NCBI RefSeq assembly: GCF_000424985.1
Contig: NZ_AUKX01000006.1
Span: forward strand, 82,755-146,754
Length of the DNA stretch: 64,000 bases
Origin: Arenibacter latericius DSM 15913
Lineage (GTDB): Bacteria; Bacteroidota; Bacteroidia; Flavobacteriales; Flavobacteriaceae
Direction of reading: 5' to 3'
Part shown: piece after piece, positions 44,993 through 55,198 of the stretch
Position numbering within the stretch: the stretch's first letter is position 1
How the letters are laid out: every line of letters begins with the position of its first letter
Program-made: the position numbers and the translations under genes
Notes under the pieces: model-generated
Told to the model about the DNA's origin: nothing
Database searches by the model: none
What the model saw: the letters and a program-made list of their open reading frames with translations, nothing else

Positions 44993-46273
44993 CTAAGCAA
45001 TCCGCTCCATCTTTTTTTGGATCTCTGCTAGGCACAAATTTCCTAGGCTTCCCTTGTGGGTGTGTTTTATATCCCGTTTTGGAGTAAAGGTCCCTTCATT
45101 AATTTCTTTCCCCATTTTTTTATAGGCATCTCTAAACGGGACTCCGCTCAATACCAGCTCATTTAAAGTGTCTACGCTGAATAGATAATCGTATTTAGGA
45201 TCTTCTAAAATAGCGTTGTTTACTCTTATCTCGCGTAAGCTGAAGGTAAGGATCTCTAAACAGGCTTTAAGATCTTGAATGGCTGGTACAATCACTTCTT
45301 TTACCAATTGTAAATCTCTATGATAGCCGCTGGGTAGGTTATTAGTTATTAGGATTAATTGATTAGGTACTGCCTGTAGTTTGTTACACTTACCTCGTAC
45401 AAGTTCAAAAACATCTGGATTCTTCTTATGAGGCATAATACTACTTCCTGTAGTAAGTTCATCTGGGAAGGAAATGAAATCGAAATTCTGACTCATGTAC
45501 AGGCAAATATCCATCGCCATTTTAGATAAGGTAGCGGCAACATTACTCATTCCGAATGCTGCTGCTTTCTCTACTTTACCACGTCCCATTTGAGCGGCCA
45601 CAACATTGTACTTCATGGTTTCGAAGCCCATTTCCTCTGTAGTGAAATCACGGTCAATTGGGAAAGAACTTCCATATCCTGCTGCACTACCTAACGGATT
45701 CTGATCTGCCACCTTGTAGGCGGCATCTATGAAGTACAAATCGTCTACCAAACTTTCTGCATAAGCAGAAAACCACAGCCCAAAAGAAGAAGGCATTGCA
45801 ATCTGTAAGTGGGTATAACCAGGTAATAAAACGGATTTATATTTATCGGCTAAGTTTATAAGTAGATCAAAAAGAACTTTTACCTCACTTTTTATTTCTG
45901 CAAGTTCGTTTTTAAGATAGAGGTGCATGGCAACTAAAACCTGATCGTTCCTAGATCTTGCCGTATGTATCTTTTTACCGGTATCGCCCAATTTTTTGGT
46001 TAGGACATATTCAATTTTGGAATGCATATCCTCAAAATTGTCTTCTATAACAAATTTCCCCTTCTCAATAGTTTTTGCGATATTATCTAACTCCTTTACT
46101 AAATCCTGGGTTTCATTTGGCGTAATTAGGCCAATTTTACCCAGCATCTTGGCATGTGCCTTAGAGGCGATTACATCATACTTTGCTAAGAGCAGATCTA
46201 ATTCTCTGTCGTTTCCTACTGTAAAATGATCAATTTTTTTATCCGTGCTAAAGCCTTTGTCCCAAAGTTTCAT
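44993..46273 (-). CDS. argH: Argininosuccinate lyase
   Basis: A 426-residue member of the fumarase/aspartase superfamily. The signature loop GSSIMPHKKNPDVFELVRGK (GSxxMxxKxN) is near residue 265; the catalytic-region motifs HTARSRNDQVLVA and GYTHLQIAMPSSFG are present. It splits argininosuccinate into arginine and fumarate, the last step of the pathway. Last gene of the arg operon, about 80 bp after argE; slightly shorter than the 460-residue E. coli enzyme. Confidence 0.96.
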   Translation of the reverse strand: MKLWDKGFSTDKKIDHFTVGNDRELDLLLAKYDVIASKAHAKMLGKIGLITPNETQDLVKELDNIAKTIEKGKFVIEDNFEDMHSKIEYVLTKKLGDTGKKIHTARSRNDQVLVAMHLYLKNELAEIKSEVKVLFDLLINLADKYKSVLLPGYTHLQIAMPSSFGLWFSAYAESLVDDLYFIDAAYKVADQNPLGSAAGYGSSFPIDRDFTTEEMGFETMKYNVVAAQMGRGKVEKAAAFGMSNVAATLSKMAMDICLYMSQNFDFISFPDELTTGSSIMPHKKNPDVFELVRGKCNKLQAVPNQLILITNNLPSGYHRDLQLVKEVIVPAIQDLKACLEILTFSLREIRVNNAILEDPKYDYLFSVDTLNELVLSGVPFRDAYKKMGKEINEGTFTPKRDIKHTHKGSLGNLCLAEIQKKMERIA

Positions 46274-46351: not shown

Positions 46352-47422
46352 CTATTTATTCAACAGAAATCCTTCTAATATTTTGATGTACAAGTCAACT
46401 CCTTCTTCAATTTCGCTAAGATAAATAAATTCGTCTGCAGAATGAGAACGCGTACTATCTCCAGGCCCTAATTTTAAAGACTGGCAATATAAACATGCCT
46501 GATCCGATAGGGTAGGAGAGCCATAGGTTTCTCTGCCAAGTGCTATACCTGATTGTACCAAAGGGTGTTCCTTGGCTATAGAGGATGAGTTTAGACGTAA
46601 GGACCGCGGTTCCATCTCGCAAGGGGCTTCTTGGGCTAGAATGTCTGCAATTTCCTGATTGCTATAACGGTCGTTTACCCGTACATCAATAACTAAATCT
46701 ACATGACCAGGGACAACATTGTGTTGATTGCCGGCTTTTAGTTGAGTTACCGTAAGTTTTACTTCACCTAATGCTTCAGAAACTTTAGGGAATTTATAAT
46801 CTTTAAACCATTGCAATACCTCAATAGTATTGTAAATAGCATTGTTGTTGTTAGGATGTGCCGCGTGCGAAGGCGTACCACTCACTTTTCCGTCGAAAAC
46901 TACCAGTCCTTTCTCGGCAATGGCCAATTGCATTAATGTAGGCTCCCCAACTATAGCAACGTCAATTTTAGGAAGAAGGGGTAACATACTGTTTAGTCCA
47001 TTTGGGCCCGAACTTTCCTCTTCTGCAGAAGCCACTATAATAATATTATGGCTTAAGTTTTCTTTGTCATAAAAATAGGTGAAAGTAGCCAGGAGAGATA
47101 CTAGGCATCCTCCCGCATCATTGCTTCCCAATCCATAGAGTTTCCCGTCTTCTACATGTGGATGAAAGGGGTCTTTGGTATAAGATGAATTGGGTTTAAC
47201 AGTATCATGATGCGAGTTTAATAAGAGGTTTGGCTTATTAGCATCATAGTGTTTGTTAAAGGCGTATACGTTATTTTTCTCCCTTTTAAATGGGATGTTG
47301 AAATCGCTCAACCATTTTTCAATGGTATCCGCGGTTTTATCTTCTTCGGAAGAGAAGGACTGAATACTGATCAATTGATGAAGTAATTCAATAGCTTTTT
47401 CCGTTCGTTGTTTCTGATCCAT
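46352..47422 (-). CDS. argE: M20-family N-acylornithine/N-acylcitrulline deacylase (ArgE)
   Basis: A 356-residue M20 metallopeptidase. Metal ligands and catalytic residues are visible: NSHHDTVK (His, Asp), LGSNDAGG (bridging Asp), ASAEEESSG (catalytic Glu pair), and SRSHSADEF (last His). In organisms with ArgF' the substrate is N-acetyl- or N-succinyl-L-citrulline instead of N-acetylornithine, because carbamoylation comes first. It lies 6 bp downstream of argB in the operon. Confidence 0.9.
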   Translation of the reverse strand: MDQKQRTEKAIELLHQLISIQSFSSEEDKTADTIEKWLSDFNIPFKREKNNVYAFNKHYDANKPNLLLNSHHDTVKPNSSYTKDPFHPHVEDGKLYGLGSNDAGGCLVSLLATFTYFYDKENLSHNIIIVASAEEESSGPNGLNSMLPLLPKIDVAIVGEPTLMQLAIAEKGLVVFDGKVSGTPSHAAHPNNNNAIYNTIEVLQWFKDYKFPKVSEALGEVKLTVTQLKAGNQHNVVPGHVDLVIDVRVNDRYSNQEIADILAQEAPCEMEPRSLRLNSSSIAKEHPLVQSGIALGRETYGSPTLSDQACLYCQSLKLGPGDSTRSHSADEFIYLSEIEEGVDLYIKILEGFLLNK

Positions 47423-47428
47423 AATAAT

Positions 47429-48208
47429 TTATAAGGTAATTGTGGTATACAAAGTTGCGTTGGGAGCTAACATGCTAATATTTCCAATGCAAACCTTGCC
47501 TACGTTTTTATGAAGCGCATGAAAGCAATTTTCCAATTTGGGTAGCATGCCATCCGCTATAATTTTCTTTTCTAATAATTCTTGATAGTTGCCTGGCTCC
47601 AAGTGTTTTACTACGGAGTCTTCGTCTGCTATATCAAACAATACCCCTTTCTTTTCAAAGCAATAATATAAGGTGGTGTCAAAGGCGTCACTCATCCCAA
47701 TAGCTACTTCTGAAGCAATGGTATCTGCATTAGTGTTTAATAATTGCCCCTCTTTATTGTGGGTGATTGCGCAGAATACCGGAGTAAAATCCGCTTGCAG
47801 TAATTGATAAATAGCAAGGGTGTTTACTTCTTCTACATCACCAGCAAAACCGTAATCTATATCTTTTACTGGGCGTTTTACAGCTCTGATGGTATTGCCA
47901 TCGGCACCGCTTAATCCTATTGCATTGGTGTCGCGAGCTTGTAATTGGGCTACGATATTTTTATTGGCTAGGCCGCCATATACCATAGTGATAACCTTTA
48001 AACCTTCGGCATCCGTAATTCGGCGTCCTCCAATCATTTTGGATTCTACTCCTAGTTTGTTAGCTATTTGAGTAGCTAATTTACCTCCTCCATGGACCAA
48101 TATTTTTGGGCCTTCCATGGTGGAAAAGGCATCTAAGAATTTATGGAGTTCTGCTTCGTTCTCTATTACGTTGCCTCCAATTTTCACTATGGATAACTTC
48201 TTTTTCAT
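47429..48208 (-). CDS. argB: N-acylglutamate kinase (ArgB)
   Basis: A 259-residue amino-acid kinase. ATP-binding Gly loop VKIGGNVIE and substrate loop VHGGGKLATQIANKLG are at the N-terminus, and GLSGADGNTIRAVKRP matches the N-acetylglutamate kinase signature. It phosphorylates N-acetyl- or N-succinylglutamate. The extended N-terminal helix that gives arginine feedback inhibition in hexameric NAGKs is absent, so feedback by arginine on this enzyme is less likely (inference). Between argF' and argE. Confidence 0.93.
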   Translation of the reverse strand: MKKKLSIVKIGGNVIENEAELHKFLDAFSTMEGPKILVHGGGKLATQIANKLGVESKMIGGRRITDAEGLKVITMVYGGLANKNIVAQLQARDTNAIGLSGADGNTIRAVKRPVKDIDYGFAGDVEEVNTLAIYQLLQADFTPVFCAITHNKEGQLLNTNADTIASEVAIGMSDAFDTTLYYCFEKKGVLFDIADEDSVVKHLEPGNYQELLEKKIIADGMLPKLENCFHALHKNVGKVCIGNISMLAPNATLYTTITL

Positions 48209-48291: not shown

Positions 48292-49236
48292 TTACTTGTC
48301 TAAACTATGTAAAACCTTTTTTAGCACTATTTGTGCGGCATAGGTCCTGTTGTTGGCTTGTTCTATCACTAAGGATTGTTCCCCATCTAATACTTCGTCT
48401 GCTACTACTACGTTTCGTCTAACTGGTAAACAGTGCATAAACTTGGCTTTTCCCAATTTTTTTTCGGTCATAGTCCAGTTTTTATCCTGATTTAATACCT
48501 TCCCGTAGTCCTGGTAATTGCTCCAGTTTTTCACGTATACAAAATCGGCATCTTCTAAAGCCTTGTCTTGGTCGTATTCAATTTTTGTATCCTTGGTGAT
48601 TTCGGGGTTTAAATCGTACCCCTTAGGATGAGTAATTACAAAATCTGCATCTTGTAATTGCATCATCTCTATAAAAGAATTTGCTACAGCATGCGGTAGC
48701 GCTTTCGGATGCGGAGCCCATGAAAGAACTACCTTGGGTTTTTTCTTGGTATTATTTTCGGAGAGCGTAATGGCGTCTGCTAATGCCTGTAACGGGTGCC
48801 CAATGGAGCTTTCCATATTAATTACAGGTATACCAGCATATTTTTTAAAATTATTAAGTACTACCTCGGCCTCATCTTGTTCCTTGTCGGTTAAGGAGGC
48901 AAAAGCTCGTATACCTACAACATCACAATACTGTGCTACTACTTTAGCGGCTTCCTTAATGTGTTCGGATGTGCCTTGGTCCATAATAGTGCCATCTTCA
49001 TACTCTAAGGCCCAGCCCTCACTACCAAAATTCATAACTATAACTTCCATTCCAAGGTTCATTGCCGCCTTTTGAGTGCTAAGGCGGGTTCTTAGGCTAT
49101 TATTAAAAAATAATAGGCAAATGGTTTTGCCCGCACCTAATGTTTTGTATTGCATAGGAGCAGCTTTTAAGGATTTTGCTTCTTCTACCCATTGGGGAAG
49201 CGAGTCAATGTCTTGTAAGGATAAATAATGTTGCAT
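48292..49236 (-). CDS. argF': N-acetyl/N-succinylornithine carbamoyltransferase
   Basis: A 314-residue transcarbamylase. The carbamoyl-phosphate motif S47-L-R-T-R51 and the HPLQALAD motif are present. The FNNSLRTRLSTQKAAMNLG and HCLPVRRNVVVADEV blocks belong to the acylornithine branch and not to classical ArgF. The residue I align with the published specificity switch (Glu in the acetyl-specific Xanthomonas enzyme, Pro90 in the succinyl-specific Bacteroides enzyme) is Ser90 in MDQGTSEHIK. It makes N-acylcitrulline. Four bp separate it from proB. Confidence 0.9.
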   Translation of the reverse strand: MQHYLSLQDIDSLPQWVEEAKSLKAAPMQYKTLGAGKTICLLFFNNSLRTRLSTQKAAMNLGMEVIVMNFGSEGWALEYEDGTIMDQGTSEHIKEAAKVVAQYCDVVGIRAFASLTDKEQDEAEVVLNNFKKYAGIPVINMESSIGHPLQALADAITLSENNTKKKPKVVLSWAPHPKALPHAVANSFIEMMQLQDADFVITHPKGYDLNPEITKDTKIEYDQDKALEDADFVYVKNWSNYQDYGKVLNQDKNWTMTEKKLGKAKFMHCLPVRRNVVVADEVLDGEQSLVIEQANNRTYAAQIVLKKVLHSLDK

Positions 49237-49240
49237 GTTT

Positions 49241-50002
49241 TTATTTTATTGTGGTAAAGGCAATTTTATTTTCTAAAGCGTTAATTATAAAATTTTCCTG
49301 GATGCCGTTTACTATCCAGGTTTCTATATTTGCGTTTTGTGCAATGGTGGCTGCTTCTATCTTAGATTGCATTCCTCCGGTTCCGTGCGAGGATTTGGAG
49401 TTGCTGATCTCCTTTTCTAAAGATGCCAAGCTTTGGACTTGCGTTATAGTTTTGGGATCGTTGGTTTCTATAGACTCCTTAGTGTAAATACCATTAGTAT
49501 TGGTGGCAATAATCAATAAGTCTGCATTGATTAGAGCCGCAGTAAGAGCGGCAAGTTTATCATTGTCACCAAATTTTATCTCATCAGTTGCCACGGTATC
49601 ATTCTCGTTAATAATTGGGATAAAATTATTAGCAACTAGGACGTTTATGGTATTACGAATATTTTCTTTGGATACTTGTTTTTCAAAATCGGAATAAGAC
49701 AATAGGCATTGGGAAGTAAACAATCCTAATTCTCTGAAATTTTCTTGAAAAATTCGCATTAGATGGGGTTGTCCAATGGAGGCCAAAGCTTGTTTAACCG
49801 TTATTTCTTCCCCATTATGCTCCAGTTTTACAAATTGTTTTGCTGCTGCAATAGCACCTGAACTTACTATTATAAATTCGTATTGGTCATTCAGTTTAGC
49901 AATTTGTCGGCCAATATCCTCAATTTTTCCTCGTGATATATGATCGGTTTCCTTGGTGAGGGTATTAGATCCTATTTTTAATAATATTCTTTTTCGTTTC
50001 AT
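49241..50002 (-). CDS. proB: Glutamate 5-kinase, short form
   Basis: About 253 residues from the ATG at 50002; an in-frame ATG at 50029 would add nine residues before the conserved MKRKRILLKIGSNTLT. Amino-acid kinase fold with the ProB signature NENDTVATDEIKFGDNDKLA and the C-terminal GTGGMQSKIEAA. It makes glutamyl 5-phosphate, the first proline step. It lacks the C-terminal PUA domain of the 367-residue E. coli enzyme. It is embedded in an arginine operon, and the next proline enzyme, ProA, is not encoded in the window. Confidence 0.93.
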   Translation of the reverse strand: MKRKRILLKIGSNTLTKETDHISRGKIEDIGRQIAKLNDQYEFIIVSSGAIAAAKQFVKLEHNGEEITVKQALASIGQPHLMRIFQENFRELGLFTSQCLLSYSDFEKQVSKENIRNTINVLVANNFIPIINENDTVATDEIKFGDNDKLAALTAALINADLLIIATNTNGIYTKESIETNDPKTITQVQSLASLEKEISNSKSSHGTGGMQSKIEAATIAQNANIETWIVNGIQENFIINALENKIAFTTIK

Positions 50003-50043
50003 TTTCCTTGCTTTAACCGATTTGTCCAAAGTACTCTGGTGAC

Positions 50044-50080: not shown

Positions 50081-51208
50081 TTACTCTAACTCTTTTTTAA
50101 GAGCATCGAAAAATTGATCTAGATTTTCCTTGGTTATATTCAATGCCGGTAATATTCTTAATACATGTTTGTTATTGGCACCACCGGTAAACATATGCTG
50201 GTTGTAAATTAATTTCTTTCTCAGTTCGCCTACCTCAAAATCGAACTCTAGCCCCAACATAAGTCCCATTCCTTTTACCTGTTTTACTTGAGGTATAGTA
50301 GCTGCTTTTAATTTAAAATATTCAAAGAGTTCAGCTGAGTTTTCTATGAGATTTTCTTTTTCAATCACCTCTAAAACAGCTAGCCCTGCAGCACATGCCA
50401 AATGATTTCCTCCAAAAGTGGTACCCAAAAGTCCGTAAGATGCTTTTATGCTATCATGAATCAACACCCCACCTATAGGAAAACCATTCCCCATTCCTTT
50501 AGCTACGGTAATAATATCTGGTTTAATATTAAAGTGTTGGAAAGCAAAGAACTTACCACTCCTTCCATATCCACATTGCACTTCGTCTGCAATCAGGATA
50601 ACCTCATACTCCTTACATAGTTTAGCAACATTCTCATAGAAGTCTGGTGAAGGCATATCTAAACCACCAACTCCTTGAATTGTTTCTATGATTACGGCAC
50701 AGACGTCTTTTTTACTAATCTCGCTGATAAAAGCTTGTAGGTCATTAAAAGGAAGAATGCTTACCTTTTGTTGTTTGTTGATAGGGGCATTAATTTTTTC
50801 ATTATCGGTAACAGCTACCGCCGCTGAGGTTCTACCGTGAAATCCATTTTTAAAGGAAATTACACGCGATTTTCCGTTTTGGAAGGAAGCTAGTTTTAAA
50901 GCATTTTCATTCGCTTCTGCTCCAGAATTACAAAGGAACAGATTGTAGTCTTCACAATTGGAAAGTTTACCCAATTTGCTAGCCAACTCCTCCTGAATAG
51001 GGTTTTGGATGGCATTACTATAAAAACCAATTTTCTCTAACTGATCTTTTAATCGGTTTACGTAGGTGGGATGGGAGTGCCCTATAGAAATTACAGCGTG
51101 ACCTCCATAAAAATCTAAGTAATCTTGGCCTTTGTCATCGGTAACCACGATTCCCTTTGCTGATACGGGGGTTACATCGTAAAGTGGATATACGTCAAAT
51201 AAATTCAT
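50081..51208 (-). CDS. argD: Acylornithine aminotransferase (ArgD)
   Basis: A 375-residue class-III PLP aminotransferase. The signature ADEVQCGYGRSGKFFAFQH precedes the PLP lysine in ITVAKGMGNGFPIGG; the phosphate-binding NSGAEANENALKLA is near residue 97. It transaminates N-acylglutamate semialdehyde to N-acylornithine with glutamate. Ornithine aminotransferase is a close relative, but the operon context argues for the biosynthetic role. It lies between proC and proB, with hairpin-bearing gaps on both sides. Confidence 0.92.
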   Translation of the reverse strand: MNLFDVYPLYDVTPVSAKGIVVTDDKGQDYLDFYGGHAVISIGHSHPTYVNRLKDQLEKIGFYSNAIQNPIQEELASKLGKLSNCEDYNLFLCNSGAEANENALKLASFQNGKSRVISFKNGFHGRTSAAVAVTDNEKINAPINKQQKVSILPFNDLQAFISEISKKDVCAVIIETIQGVGGLDMPSPDFYENVAKLCKEYEVILIADEVQCGYGRSGKFFAFQHFNIKPDIITVAKGMGNGFPIGGVLIHDSIKASYGLLGTTFGGNHLACAAGLAVLEVIEKENLIENSAELFEYFKLKAATIPQVKQVKGMGLMLGLEFDFEVGELRKKLIYNQHMFTGGANNKHVLRILPALNITKENLDQFFDALKKELE

Positions 51209-51267: not shown

Positions 51268-52062
51268 CTATTCCTTTTTAATTTCGTTTATTTTATCAAA
51301 AGATGCTAAGATCCCCCTAATTAAGGAAGAGCTCAGACCTTGGTGTTCCATTTCGTTAAGTCCAGATATGGTACATCCCTTTGGGGTGGTTACCTTATCT
51401 ATTTCGTGTTCTGGATGGCTTTCCGATTCTATTAATAAGTTTGCAGCTCCGTTACAAGTGTGCATCGCTAATTCTTGAGCCTCTTTAGCATCAAACCCTA
51501 GTTGGATTGCGCCTTGAGTGGTGGCGCGTATCATACGCATCCAAAAGGCGATTCCACTAGCGCAGATAACCGTAGCAGCTTGCATTTGTTGTTCAGGAAT
51601 TTGTAGGGAATGCCCCATTCTGTTGAAAATAGCTTTAGCTAGCTCTATACGTTTAAGCCCCTTTTCATTGCTACATATACAGGTCATGGATTTTCCCACT
51701 GAAATAGCGGTATTGGGCATAGCTCTAATAATATAGTTATCGGACCCAATAACTTCTTCCATTTTAGCAATACTAAATCCAGTTATGGTAGAGATAATCA
51801 CATGCTTGTCTGTAAGAAGGTCTTTTACCTCATTCAAAATTTTTGTGAATTGTCCCGGCTGAACGGTAAAAATTAAAATGTCGGACTTGCTTACTGCCTC
51901 TCTATTGTCGGAGGTGGTGCTTACAATACCATATTCTTCCAACTCTTTAAGATCGCCCAAATTTCTTTTGGTGAGGACCATGGAGGTAGCGCCATTAGTG
52001 CTCAAAATACCTTCGGCAATGGACATCCCTAAATTTCCGGCCCCTATAATGGCTATTTTCAT
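51268..52062 (-). CDS. proC: Pyrroline-5-carboxylate reductase
   Basis: A 264-residue Rossmann-fold reductase with the dinucleotide loop IIGAGNLGMSIAEGI and the MPNTAISVGKSMT motif. The C-terminal signature TTPKGCTISGLNEMEHQGL corresponds to the ProC pattern, although the central SGSGPA motif reads ASGIAF here. It reduces pyrroline-5-carboxylate to proline. Its presence in the arg operon, next to argC and argD, couples proline with arginine supply. Hairpin-bearing gaps flank it. Confidence 0.88.
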   Translation of the reverse strand: MKIAIIGAGNLGMSIAEGILSTNGATSMVLTKRNLGDLKELEEYGIVSTTSDNREAVSKSDILIFTVQPGQFTKILNEVKDLLTDKHVIISTITGFSIAKMEEVIGSDNYIIRAMPNTAISVGKSMTCICSNEKGLKRIELAKAIFNRMGHSLQIPEQQMQAATVICASGIAFWMRMIRATTQGAIQLGFDAKEAQELAMHTCNGAANLLIESESHPEHEIDKVTTPKGCTISGLNEMEHQGLSSSLIRGILASFDKINEIKKE

Positions 52063-52186: not shown

Positions 52187-53161
52187 CTAAAAGACACCTG
52201 CTTTCAATTGTAAGCCTGCATTCTCTTCCAGGCCAAAAGCCAAATTCATGTTTTGCACTGCCTGTCCCGATGCTCCTTTTAAGAGGTTATCTATGGCAGA
52301 GGTAATTAATAAGGTATTATTGTGCTTATGCAAATGAATGTGACATTGGTTGGTGTTCACCACTTGTTTTAGGTTGAGGTCTTCTTCGGTAACCTGAGTA
52401 AATACCGCATCCTTATAAAAATCATAATACAAGGAATAAGCTTCTTCTAGGCTTCCTTTAAATTCAGTATAAGCAGTTGCCAAAATACCTCTGGTGAAGT
52501 TCCCTCTATTGGGCAGAAAGAATAATTCTCCTGTTTCTTTTTGTAGGCTTTGCAAACTTTCTTTTATCTCCCCTAGGTGTTGGTGAGTAAAGGGCTTGTA
52601 CCAGGAAACATTATTGTTTCTCCAACTGTAATGAGCAGTAGGAGAAAGGCTTGCCCCCGCACCAGTACTGCCAGTAACAGCATTTATATGTACTGGGTTA
52701 TTCAATAGGTTTGCCTTTGCTAAGGGTAGTAAAGCCAGTTGTATACCGGTAGCAAAACACCCAGGATTGGCAATATAATTTGCAGATTTAATTTCTTCTT
52801 TCTTTAGTTCTGGCAACCCATATACAAAGTTTTTACCATCAAAAAGAGCATCTGCAGCCAACCTAAAGTCGTTGCTTAGATCTATAATCTTGGTAGCCTT
52901 AGAAAATGGGTTTTCCTCTAAGAACTTAGTAGAATTACCATGCCCTAGGCATAGGAATACCACATCTACATCTGGATTTACGGTGCCTGTAAATTTTAGA
53001 TCTGTTGTCCCTAGCAGGTCGGGATGGGCAGTCGTAATCTTTTTGTTAGCCCTAGTGGTGCTATAGACAAAGTCTATTTTGGCATTAGGGTGGTTTAAAA
53101 GTATTCTAATAAGTTCGCCGCCTGTATATCCGGATCCCCCTATGATTCCTACTTTAATCAT
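52187..53161 (-). CDS. argC: N-acyl-gamma-glutamyl-phosphate reductase
   Basis: A 324-residue dehydrogenase with the NADP loop VGIIGGSGYTGGELIRIL at the N-terminus and the catalytic Cys in YIANPGCFATGIQLALLPLA (near residue 134). The Xaa-His motif region (HQHLGEI) is present. It reduces N-acylglutamyl phosphate to the semialdehyde. Its start overlaps the end of argG by 8 bp, so the two are translationally coupled. Confidence 0.95.
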   Translation of the reverse strand: MIKVGIIGGSGYTGGELIRILLNHPNAKIDFVYSTTRANKKITTAHPDLLGTTDLKFTGTVNPDVDVVFLCLGHGNSTKFLEENPFSKATKIIDLSNDFRLAADALFDGKNFVYGLPELKKEEIKSANYIANPGCFATGIQLALLPLAKANLLNNPVHINAVTGSTGAGASLSPTAHYSWRNNNVSWYKPFTHQHLGEIKESLQSLQKETGELFFLPNRGNFTRGILATAYTEFKGSLEEAYSLYYDFYKDAVFTQVTEEDLNLKQVVNTNQCHIHLHKHNNTLLITSAIDNLLKGASGQAVQNMNLAFGLEENAGLQLKAGVF

Positions 53162-54353
53162 CTTGTTGATTTACATGATTGTATATTTTTCCAGGGTTGG
53201 AAAGAATTTTTATGAATCCTTTAGCGTCGTCAGCTGTCCAACCTTCATTCATTTCTCCATAGCTACCAAATGAAGCATTCATCAGATCGTGAGGAGAAGA
53301 TATTCCGTCTAATTCAAATCGATACGGGTGGAGGCTTACAAAAACATCTCCTGATACATTTCTTTGGGTATCGGTAAGGAATGCTTCAATGTTACGCATT
53401 ACCTCGTCCATATAGTTGCCTTCGTGTAAGAGCATTCCATAAAAGCTTGCTTGTTGTTCTTTTTGGTACTGCTGCCATTTGCTAAGGGTGTGTTTTTCTA
53501 GTAAATGGTGTGCCTTTATGATGATTAATGATGCAGGAGCTTCAAAACCTACTCTCCCTTTAATACCAATAATAGTATCGCCAACATGGATATCTCTACC
53601 AATAGCATATTTGGAGGCTAAGGCTTCCAATTTTACAATATTGTTTACTGGAGTGTCCGTATCCCCATCCAAAGCAATTAGCTCTCCCTTATGGAAAGTT
53701 AATTTAATTTGGGTAGGCTCTGTTTCCTGTAATTGACTTGGGAAGGCATGGTCTGGTAAAGGTTTATGGGAGGTTAGTGTTTCGTCTCCACCAACAGAAG
53801 TTCCCCATAGTCCTTTATTGATAGAATATTTTGCTTTTTCCCATGGATAATCTACGCCATTCTTTTTTAGATATTCTATTTCTACCTCTCTAGATAGCTT
53901 ATTATCCCTTATAGGAGTAATAATTTCTATTTCGGGAGCTATAATCTGGAAGATCATATCAAACCTCACCTGATCATTACCAGCGCCTGTACTACCGTGT
54001 GCAATATAATTGGCACCTATTTTTTTGGCGTAGTTTACTATTTCAATGGCTTGTACAATTCGTTCTGCGCTTACAGAAAGAGGATAGGTGTTATTTTTTA
54101 AAACATTACCAAATATTAAGTATTTAACTACTTTTTCATAAAACGTTTGTACGGCGTCTATAGAGGTATAGCTAGTAGCGCCAAGCTCTAAGGCTTTTTT
54201 ATGGATTTGCTCTATTTCTTCTTGTGGGAATCCGCCGGTATTAACGCTAACGGCATGTACTTCAAACCCTTTTTCTTTAGATAGGTATTTTGCGCAATAA
54301 GAGGTATCTAATCCTCCGCTATAGGCCAAAACTAATTTTTTCATTTTACTCAT
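53154..54353 (-). CDS. argG: Argininosuccinate synthase
   Basis: A 399-residue ATP-pyrophosphatase-type enzyme. The ATP loop LAYSGGLDTSYCAKYL is at the N-terminus; ANYIAHGSTGAGNDQVRFD is the citrulline/aspartate-binding signature. It joins citrulline and aspartate to form argininosuccinate. An ATG at 54344 (MKKLVLAYSGG) is the more usual start; the longer one adds three residues. First pathway gene after the GNAT gene, 36 bp downstream. Confidence 0.95.
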   Translation of the reverse strand: MSKMKKLVLAYSGGLDTSYCAKYLSKEKGFEVHAVSVNTGGFPQEEIEQIHKKALELGATSYTSIDAVQTFYEKVVKYLIFGNVLKNNTYPLSVSAERIVQAIEIVNYAKKIGANYIAHGSTGAGNDQVRFDMIFQIIAPEIEIITPIRDNKLSREVEIEYLKKNGVDYPWEKAKYSINKGLWGTSVGGDETLTSHKPLPDHAFPSQLQETEPTQIKLTFHKGELIALDGDTDTPVNNIVKLEALASKYAIGRDIHVGDTIIGIKGRVGFEAPASLIIIKAHHLLEKHTLSKWQQYQKEQQASFYGMLLHEGNYMDEVMRNIEAFLTDTQRNVSGDVFVSLHPYRFELDGISSPHDLMNASFGSYGEMNEGWTADDAKGFIKILSNPGKIYNHVNQQDD

Positions 54354-54389: not shown

Positions 54390-55010
54390 TTATTTCGTTT
54401 TCTTACTTAGGAATAGGCTTTCTTTTATGCTTTTTAGCCTTTTAAAAGCCTTAGAATTTACTTTTTCTATGCTGCTAGATTTTGTTTTTATGGCAGGGTC
54501 ATATAACATCCCAGTACATAGACACATTTTTTGCTCCGTTCTGGTCAGAATATCGAAGTTCTTACAGGTTTGGCAACCTTTCCAAAATTCGGGATCTGTG
54601 GTAAGCTCCGAAAAGGTGACAGGTTTATAGCCCAATTCGTAATTCATTTTCATTACAGCTAAACCGGTAGTGATACCAAAAATCTTAGCATCTGGAAACT
54701 TAGATCTAGAAAGATTGAAAATTTCTTTTTTTATTCTTTTGGCTAATCCTTGATTTCTATAATCCGGGTGTACTATAAGCCCAGAATTAGCGACAAATTT
54801 CTCGTGTCCCCAAACTTCGATATAACAGAAACCGGCAAACTTATCACCATCTAATGCGATGACTGCATTTCCGTTACGAAGTCTTTTTTCTATATATTCG
54901 GGAGTACGTTTTGCAATCCCTGTGCCCCTAACTTTGGCCGATTCTGCTATAGTATCACAGATGATCTCGGCATATTTAAAATGGGAGTCGTTAGCAATAA
55001 CAATCTTCAT
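54390..55010 (-). CDS. GNAT acyltransferase with a C-terminal four-cysteine motif, first gene of the arg operon
   Basis: A 206-residue GNAT protein starting at the ATG at 55010. An upstream in-frame ATG at 55082 would lie inside a hairpin region after the leader peptide and adds 24 non-conserved residues. The acyl-CoA loop is VHPDYRNQGLAKRI (80-93). Near the C-terminus, after the GNAT core, are Cys146, Cys149, Cys163 and Cys165 (GCQTC and KMCLCTGM), a CxxC...CxC pattern that suggests a bound metal. The operon has no argA or argJ, so this is a good candidate for the N-acyl-(acetyl or succinyl)glutamate synthase of the pathway; this is inferred from context. Confidence 0.78.
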   Translation of the reverse strand: MKIVIANDSHFKYAEIICDTIAESAKVRGTGIAKRTPEYIEKRLRNGNAVIALDGDKFAGFCYIEVWGHEKFVANSGLIVHPDYRNQGLAKRIKKEIFNLSRSKFPDAKIFGITTGLAVMKMNYELGYKPVTFSELTTDPEFWKGCQTCKNFDILTRTEQKMCLCTGMLYDPAIKTKSSSIEKVNSKAFKRLKSIKESLFLSKKTK

Positions 55011-55058: not shown

Positions 55059-55080
55059 GGAAATGGACTCACCTATTTCC
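55059..55080 (-). other. RNA hairpin in the arg leader, 5' of the GNAT gene
   Basis: On the transcript GGAAAT (55080-55075) pairs with ATTTCC (55064-55059), and GG with CC inside, with one bulged A and a 5-nt loop. The ATGG of the left side can alternatively pair with CCAT at 55092-55089, so two structures exclude each other. It is followed by an A-run, not a U-run, so it is not a classical terminator. Confidence 0.45.
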
Positions 55081-55097
55081 ATAACAGAATGGCACCC

Positions 55098-55181
55098 TTA
55101 CGGGCGACGACGTGTAGGCGTAAATGAATAAGCAAGGTTAGTAACCTCGTTATAATTTAATATGTGTGTAGTTTTATTCAT
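55098..55181 (-). CDS. Probable arginine(-proline) leader peptide of the arg/pro operon
   Basis: A 27-codon frame, ATG at 55181-55179 and TAA at 55100-55098, whose product ends TPTRRRP. Three consecutive arginine codons (CGT CGT CGC) and a proline codon stand right before the stop. The stop codon is in the loop of a small CGCCC/GGGTG hairpin (GTAA loop). A TAnnTTTG box lies 9 bp upstream. It precedes an operon whose products make arginine and proline. End-product codons just before the stop are the mark of ribosome-mediated attenuation leaders. No database support was possible. Confidence 0.72.
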   Translation of the reverse strand: MNKTTHILNYNEVTNLAYSFTPTRRRP

Positions 55182-55190
55182 TGCTGATAT

Positions 55191-55198
55191 CAAAAGTA
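55191..55198 (-). promoter_or_regulatory. Candidate -7 box of the arg/pro operon
   Basis: TACTTTTG on the minus strand matches TAnnTTTG and stands 9 bp upstream of the leader-peptide ATG. No TTG is found at the usual -33 distance. If used, the transcript begins only a few bases before the leader start codon. Confidence 0.5.

Follow-up and report, generated by a model that had tools for sequence, protein, structure and literature searches.

The arginine operon and the short frame in front of it

We analysed a 64,000-nt stretch of the Arenibacter latericius DSM 15913 genome, referred to here as the window. Its minus strand carries an amino acid operon headed by a GNAT gene, which we take to be probably an N-acylglutamate synthase, followed by argG, argC and further genes down to argH (Table 1). 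A sequence-only reading of the same DNA had described this operon as making exactly arginine and proline. The arginine part of that description was borne out; no proA was seen between argH and GNAT in the window, which leaves the operon with arginine synthesis and just a portion of the proline pathway.

Upstream of GNAT, the box TACTTTTG, which we take to be a TAnnTTTG-type promoter, is followed after 9 nt by an ATG at 55181, a frame of 27 codons and a TAA at 55100-55098. The frame ends with Thr-Pro-Thr-Arg-Arg-Arg-Pro (ACG CCT ACA CGT CGT CGC CCG, then TAA), and 87 nt lie between its stop and the GNAT ATG at 55010. Box, frame and Arg-Arg-Arg-Pro ending had all been pointed out in the earlier reading and can be read directly in the sequence. 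A longer GNAT start at 55082 (MEIGESIS) was considered as the N-terminus or as a conserved second frame. Its ATG occurs in 49 of 79 relatives and is open and in frame with GNAT in just five of the 79, which makes it unlikely.

Table 1 Features of the leader region and the operon behind it, with the basis of each assignment.
Feature	Position	Strand	Basis
Promoter-like box TACTTTTG	55191..55198	-	Sequence; 9 nt 5' of leader ATG
Leader peptide frame MNKTTHILNYNEVTNLAYSFTPTRRRP and stop	55098..55181	-	Sequence; kept in 79/80 relative loci
Arg run CGT CGT CGC, proposed stalling site	55104..55112	-	Sequence; Arg enrichment in relatives
Hairpin H1 CGCCC-GUAA-GGGUG, stop codon within loop	55093..55106	-	Alignments, covariation
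U-rich spacer, H1 to H2	55081..55092	-	58% T, 89 sequences
Hairpin H2 GGAAAU-AGGUGAGUCC-AUUUCC, core GGUGNGUCC	55059..55080	-	Covariation, core conservation
GNAT, operon gene 1	54390..55010	-	Family models; start 55010 by conservation
argG, argininosuccinate synthase	53154..54353	-	Family models
argC	52187..53161	-	Family model
proC	51268..52062	-	Family model
argD-like transaminase	50081..51208	-	Best family model below its cut-off
proB, glutamate 5-kinase	49241..50029	-	Family model
Acetylornithine-type carbamoyltransferase	48292..49236	-	Family model 287.5 bits, cut-off 288
argB	47429..48208	-	Family model
argE/dapE-family deacylase	46352..47422	-	Family models, below cut-offs
argH	44993..46273	-	Family model

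Using the GNAT protein as query, we collected 80 loci of close relatives. The best match came from Arenibacter certesii (98% identity), and others came from Maribacter, Zobellia, Muricauda/Flagellimonas, Cellulophaga, Eudoraea and more. Loss of the frame in close relatives with the same operon, raised in the sequence-only reading as a point that would speak against it, was not seen. A short ATG frame at the same distance and ending in Arg-Pro was present in 79 of the 80 loci; the remaining locus (L080), with just 123 nt of upstream DNA, lacks this region and was dropped from all analyses. The ending was Arg-Arg-Pro in 77 of the 80 loci and Arg-Arg-Arg-Pro in 73. An alignment of the window with the 79 loci (80 regions) revealed conservation of TTTGTACnTTTG, the ATG, the frame end and a block GGAAATAGGTGAGTCCATTTCC. 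The 27-codon Arg-Arg-Arg-Pro frame is not a chance occurrence. The whole 181-nt leader did not stand out in folding energy (z -1.20; 28 of 200 shuffles reached an equally low value), and the window's leader peptide had no Pfam match at E up to 1.

Arginine codons in the leaders and the place of ArgR

We analysed peptide composition in 139 family sequences, of which one was dropped and the rest reduced to 74 non-redundant sequences, counting the 15 codons before the terminal Arg-Arg-Pro in all three frames. Arg made up 15.7% of the in-frame codons versus 4.5% and 3.2% in the other frames, and stop codons were at 0.0% in frame versus 4.5% and 5.7%. Across the 74 leader frames, 142 of 174 Arg codons were CGT or CGC. 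In 13 window genes between 44993 and 60776, the commonest Arg codon was AGA (48 of 121). Given the CGT/CGC preference, the leader may read one tRNA-Arg isoacceptor.

Beyond the family, we drew 198 genomes of the class, 70 of which had GNAT, and examined 300 nt upstream of the gene in all 64 that lie outside Flavobacteriaceae. For each amino acid, we took the highest count within the final 12 codons of any short frame and compared it with dinucleotide shuffles. Arg reached 2.88 versus 1.60 in shuffles, with a z of 12.5 that overstates independence because related genomes were counted separately. At least four Arg codons were found in 20 loci versus 1.9 in shuffles, and at least five Arg and Pro codons together in 35 versus 2.6. 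Examples of such leaders end in ..FTRPNRPSRRPHGGIC, ..LLFVLPVRPVFYIRR and ..SVARRPFSRRPARV directly before the stop and use AGG, AGA and CGN codons. An Arg-rich leader at the head of the arginine operon, as originally proposed, is kept in close relatives and recurs with other Arg codons in other families.

The leader might also sense proline, which would match the mixed operon and was part of the earlier proposal; we consider this possible but doubtful. Outside the family, Pro alone among the remaining amino acids was enriched (1.77 versus 1.41 in shuffles, z 3.7; all others z ≤ 1.2), and leaders such as ..APVRPFSPRRRP were found among the relatives. Within the family, however, Pro before the terminal Arg-Arg-Pro was as frequent in frame (10.5%) as in another frame (10.0%; 5.2% in the third), so proline sensing is unsupported there. 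Moreover, the last Pro codon belongs to hairpin H1 (see below), proA is not part of the operon, and proC was missing in only four of 60 loci fetched from the family, too few for comparison.

Arginine synthesis is usually taught as being under the control of the repressor ArgR. With the ArgR family model (PF01316), none of 62 class genomes, the window's genome included, scored above the cut-off, and the window's genome had no match. The same model matched nine of 14 control genomes, Bacteroides ihuae among them, eight over the cut-off. In the class draw, nine of 198 genomes were over the cut-off, eight strongly and one marginally (G165, which carries the leader element). Five of the eight strong argR genes lie directly before GNAT, where 31-100 nt separate the argR stop from the GNAT match. 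Four of these five argR-headed loci fell below the Arg+Pro threshold; the fifth (L254) reached it via a frame in a repeat-like stretch behind argR, and no convincing leader was seen in any of the five. The apparent exclusion between ArgR and leader was not significant with five loci (Fisher p 0.12). Notably, the leader seems to take the position expected for ArgR.

Two hairpins at the leader end and their distribution

We aligned the leader ends in two sets. A1 held 69 sequences, without identical copies and without L030 and L070, in which the motif is absent. A2 held 89 of 90 more diverse sequences (L177 was not recovered by covariance model R1) and was aligned to a model that holds the H1/H2 structure, which somewhat favours that structure. 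The 5' arm of H1 consists of the last Arg and Pro codons of the leader, and the stop codon sits in its GUAA loop, in agreement with the GNRA-type loop described before. The inner four pairs of H1 are kept in nearly all of the 89 sequences. One pair shows double changes, from C-G to A-U in three sequences, the others are mostly invariant, and the outermost pair is missing in 21 of 87. In H2, all six outer pairs show changes on both sides across the 89 sequences, with an inner GG/CC around UGNGU in which three of the 89 have A-U in place of G-C at one pair; 83 show the core GGTGNGTCC without deviation. Taking H1 and H2 together, 96.8% of 1153 cells were paired, and 95 double-change cells were counted versus 20.5 in shuffles (0 of 500 reaching this number), with slid controls giving at most 21. 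H1 and H2 are conserved structures, H2 by strong covariation.

The sequence-only reading had also drawn two mutually exclusive pairings, CCAT with ATGG or GGAAAT with ATTTCC. Both can be drawn in the window, and the second, the stem of H2, is kept by covariation, but the first did not hold up: it pairs in 78.3% of cells, and 34 of 500 shuffles reached its covariation score. No conserved antiterminator partner and no covarying rival helix was found in the alignments of Flavobacteriaceae leaders. As for the statement that no U-run follows, a long run is indeed absent, but the 10-15 nt between H1 and H2 are U-rich (58% T over 89 sequences), with a run of at least four T in 42 of the 89. A terminator scan listed H1 as terminator-like, one of two such sites in the region versus 0.6 in shuffles. 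With a stem of 4-5 pairs and an interrupted U-tract, H1 is at best a weak terminator.

Among divergent loci, 59 could be anchored (L121, which has no anchor, was left out of these positions). The leader stop lies at its usual place in the H1 loop in 48 of them and later in 11, of which about three, by a rough measure, reach into H2. Rfam gave no match at gathering score in the window and four sub-threshold matches around the leader, with E of 1.4 or more. We also considered whether the H2 loop might pair with the 16S rRNA 3' end, and dropped the idea, as such a helix needs a bulge and meets the inner G-C to A-U change. The H2 core suggests a partner.

We then searched 299 Flavobacteriaceae genomes with R1, built from the leader end, and found matches in 177. 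The own genome of the window gave one strong match; a second (E 5.9) was judged by its score to be chance. We fetched 60 loci, the lower-scoring among the listed R1 matches, and in all 60 the element is followed, at a distance of 38-97 nt, by the start of the GNAT match and then by argG and argC. From the 122 non-matching genomes, 20 were searched for GNAT, and 18 of them lacked it (E 1e-10). The missing GNAT in these 18 suggests that many Flavobacteriaceae have lost the arginine operon and are arginine auxotrophs.

Eight genomes of the family with GNAT but without an R1 match were inspected. L177 and L181 carry the element after all, and L183 has the leader and H1 with a different H2. In three genomes of genus g2 (L178, L179 and L180), another conserved short frame, MNK[TI]SLHITSLSRT..SPEVR, lies about 330 nt upstream of GNAT, and nothing leader-like was seen upstream of GNAT in two further g2 genomes. 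The g2 frame stands behind TACTTTTG, has two CGG Arg codons and is possibly a diverged leader. Since GNAT is present in genus g2 while H1/H2 and ArgR are both missing, neither is essential, and other control, perhaps by a short frame of its own, must serve there. A broader model, R2, matched 18 of 246 genomes of the order, 16 of them in the family; the two outside were taken as chance. Weak outside-family matches (L086, L087, L197 and L198) showed by eye neither an Arg leader nor the operon, and L198 has the look of a terminator close to a tRNA-like stretch. Within the family and the order of G038, searches returned only the same three GNAT genomes. As far as tested, H1/H2 is a Flavobacteriaceae element that is absent from genus g2.

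Outside the family, hairpins at the frame end were scored in 34 of the 35 Arg+Pro loci, leaving out L254. The score was 9.1 versus 5.2 in shuffles (0 of 200 as high), and a hairpin was present in 25 of the 34. Terminator-like sites occurred in six of the 64 regions versus 0.75 in shuffles, and only two of the six, L231/L268 and L241/L269, are strong and lie between leader and gene. Strong terminator evidence is thus confined to two genera of one small non-Flavobacteriaceae family. Their leaders are MTTILLNLRSPRRQPNTAG and MKQVLLNYRSLRRRPYAAG, preceded by TACATTTG. Behind the leader, L268 and L269 have an 11-12 bp terminator with a U run, and its 5' arm can pair with the leader end (-14.9 and -19.2 kcal/mol). 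In the classical logic, a ribosome stalled at the Arg codons would free the leader end to pair with the terminator arm. Both loci also have a second conserved short frame, ..HFE[SQ]IQSI.DMLNYT, between the leader terminator and GNAT.

Hairpins with loops like CCUAYGYGG were observed 60-130 nt before GNAT, behind Arg leaders of other families (L201, L203, L219, L221, L224, L233, L242, L243 and others), and are perhaps a counterpart of H2. With one definition of these hairpins, a YNNGY loop, seven of the 64 outside-family regions had a hit versus 0.5 in shuffles, a lead only, as this definition was made after viewing the sequences.

Proposed read-out of the leader and relation to known systems

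These data describe a real and conserved Arg leader peptide, which in one family comes with a new RNA element and which has relatives throughout the class. We interpret it, with a probability of roughly 0.7, as an arginine-sensing leader peptide, that is, a ribosome-mediated attenuator of the arginine operon in bacteria without detected ArgR. The core of this interpretation holds because the frame is kept, Arg is enriched in it, the operon behind it is constant, and ArgR was not above cut-off.

From the sequences we infer a course that runs from translation and stalling, through the direction of the response and H1 as the switch, to a transcriptional read-out and a role for H2. A ribosome would start on the leader soon after transcription onset. 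With ample Arg-tRNA, it would reach the stop codon and leave, H1 would fold, and transcription would terminate or be impeded in the U-rich spacer that follows H1. With Arg-tRNA short, the ribosome would stall on the CGU/CGC run and cover the 5' arm of H1. Since H1 overlaps the Arg codons, a stalled ribosome must exclude it, and the polymerase would proceed into GNAT-argG. H2 would be an additional conserved module where RNA polymerase or a protein probably makes contact. Several features make a transcriptional read-out probable: H1 has a high GC content and shares sequence with the Arg codons, a U-rich spacer comes after it, and the relatives L268 and L269 have a true terminator.

A wider reading would give H2 a dedicated partner, which could be RNA polymerase, a Nus-type factor or some new protein that binds RNA. 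Arg leader and H2 would then act as a two-part switch, other lineages would have equivalents of the hairpin after their Arg leaders, and the whole would form a class-wide RNA system where ArgR stands elsewhere. We consider this reading rather unlikely.

The main rival to a transcriptional read-out through an H1 terminator is Rho. The same Arg leader would act in that case through a stalled ribosome that shields a Rho loading region at the leader end; ribosome release at the stop would expose this region, and Rho would end transcription before GNAT. In 60 divergent loci, C exceeds G in the leader (21.7% versus 13.8%) and G is very scarce (5.3%) between H2 and GNAT, long U runs are missing from Flavobacteriaceae leaders, and Salmonella speF offers a precedent for an Arg-codon leader with Rho (PMC6386406). 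However, this composition is only suggestive and comes from 60 of 139 available family loci, and Rho does not require the fixed core and stem of H2. We therefore regard a Rho-dependent read-out as unlikely.

Translational control, in which the leader ribosome alters access to the GNAT start, appears less likely still. The short and fairly constant distance from the element to GNAT (38-97 nt, 60 loci) would suit it, but the GNAT start lies outside H2, and the alignment showed no conserved pairing with that start. Least probable is a structured RNA without a meaningful peptide, in which Arg-Arg-Pro would be incidental coding of the H1 arm CGYCGCCC and H2 a small riboswitch or a binding site. In its favour, conservation is higher in H1 and H2 than in the remaining leader, and the H2 core is near-invariant, but Arg is enriched and in-frame stops are absent upstream of H1, and Arg leaders outside the family use other codons.

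The proposed attenuator resembles and departs from several known systems. Classical attenuators (trp, his, leu, thr and pheA leaders) consist of a short frame with end-product codons near its stop. The leaders described here share with them these codons, the overlapping hairpin and the matching amino acid operon behind, and L268/L269 alone also share the terminator and antiterminator. They differ in that arginine is sensed and in that Flavobacteriaceae have H1, a U-rich spacer and H2 and no clear terminator/antiterminator. ArgR has the same task and takes the leader's place in five class loci; it is a DNA-binding protein, in contrast to a leader, and the window's genome has none above cut-off.

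In the Salmonella speF leader, consecutive Arg codons of orf34 sense arginine by ribosome pausing (PMC6386406), as we propose for the present frame. There are differences: orf34 controls ornithine decarboxylase rather than arginine synthesis, has 34 codons, a 5' UTR of about 515 nt and its own peptide core, and acts via Rho, RNase G and access to the speF start. The orf34 (DUF2618) core HIRRT..HIMM, as given in PMC6386406, is absent from the window peptide, and the gene behind the latter is GNAT, not speF. Within the same family, Flavobacterium psychrophilum is reported to show strong clues for leader-peptide attenuation before amino acid operons; pheA and hisG are among those named in the accessible part of PMC9723704, and arginine is not named there. 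The accessible parts of PMC8632094 and PMC7366714 contain no description of the leader/H1/H2 element. In one open library, covered by listings and a few passages, we found no description of an arginine leader for a Bacteroidota arginine operon, and one may exist in print.

If the proposal is true, a large part of a bacterial class would sense arginine via a ribosome on a leader peptide, which would explain arginine regulation in genomes without detectable ArgR. It would also provide an example of one operon whose upstream position is taken either by a repressor gene or by an RNA leader, and would offer a conserved hairpin, H2, as the site of a putative partner.
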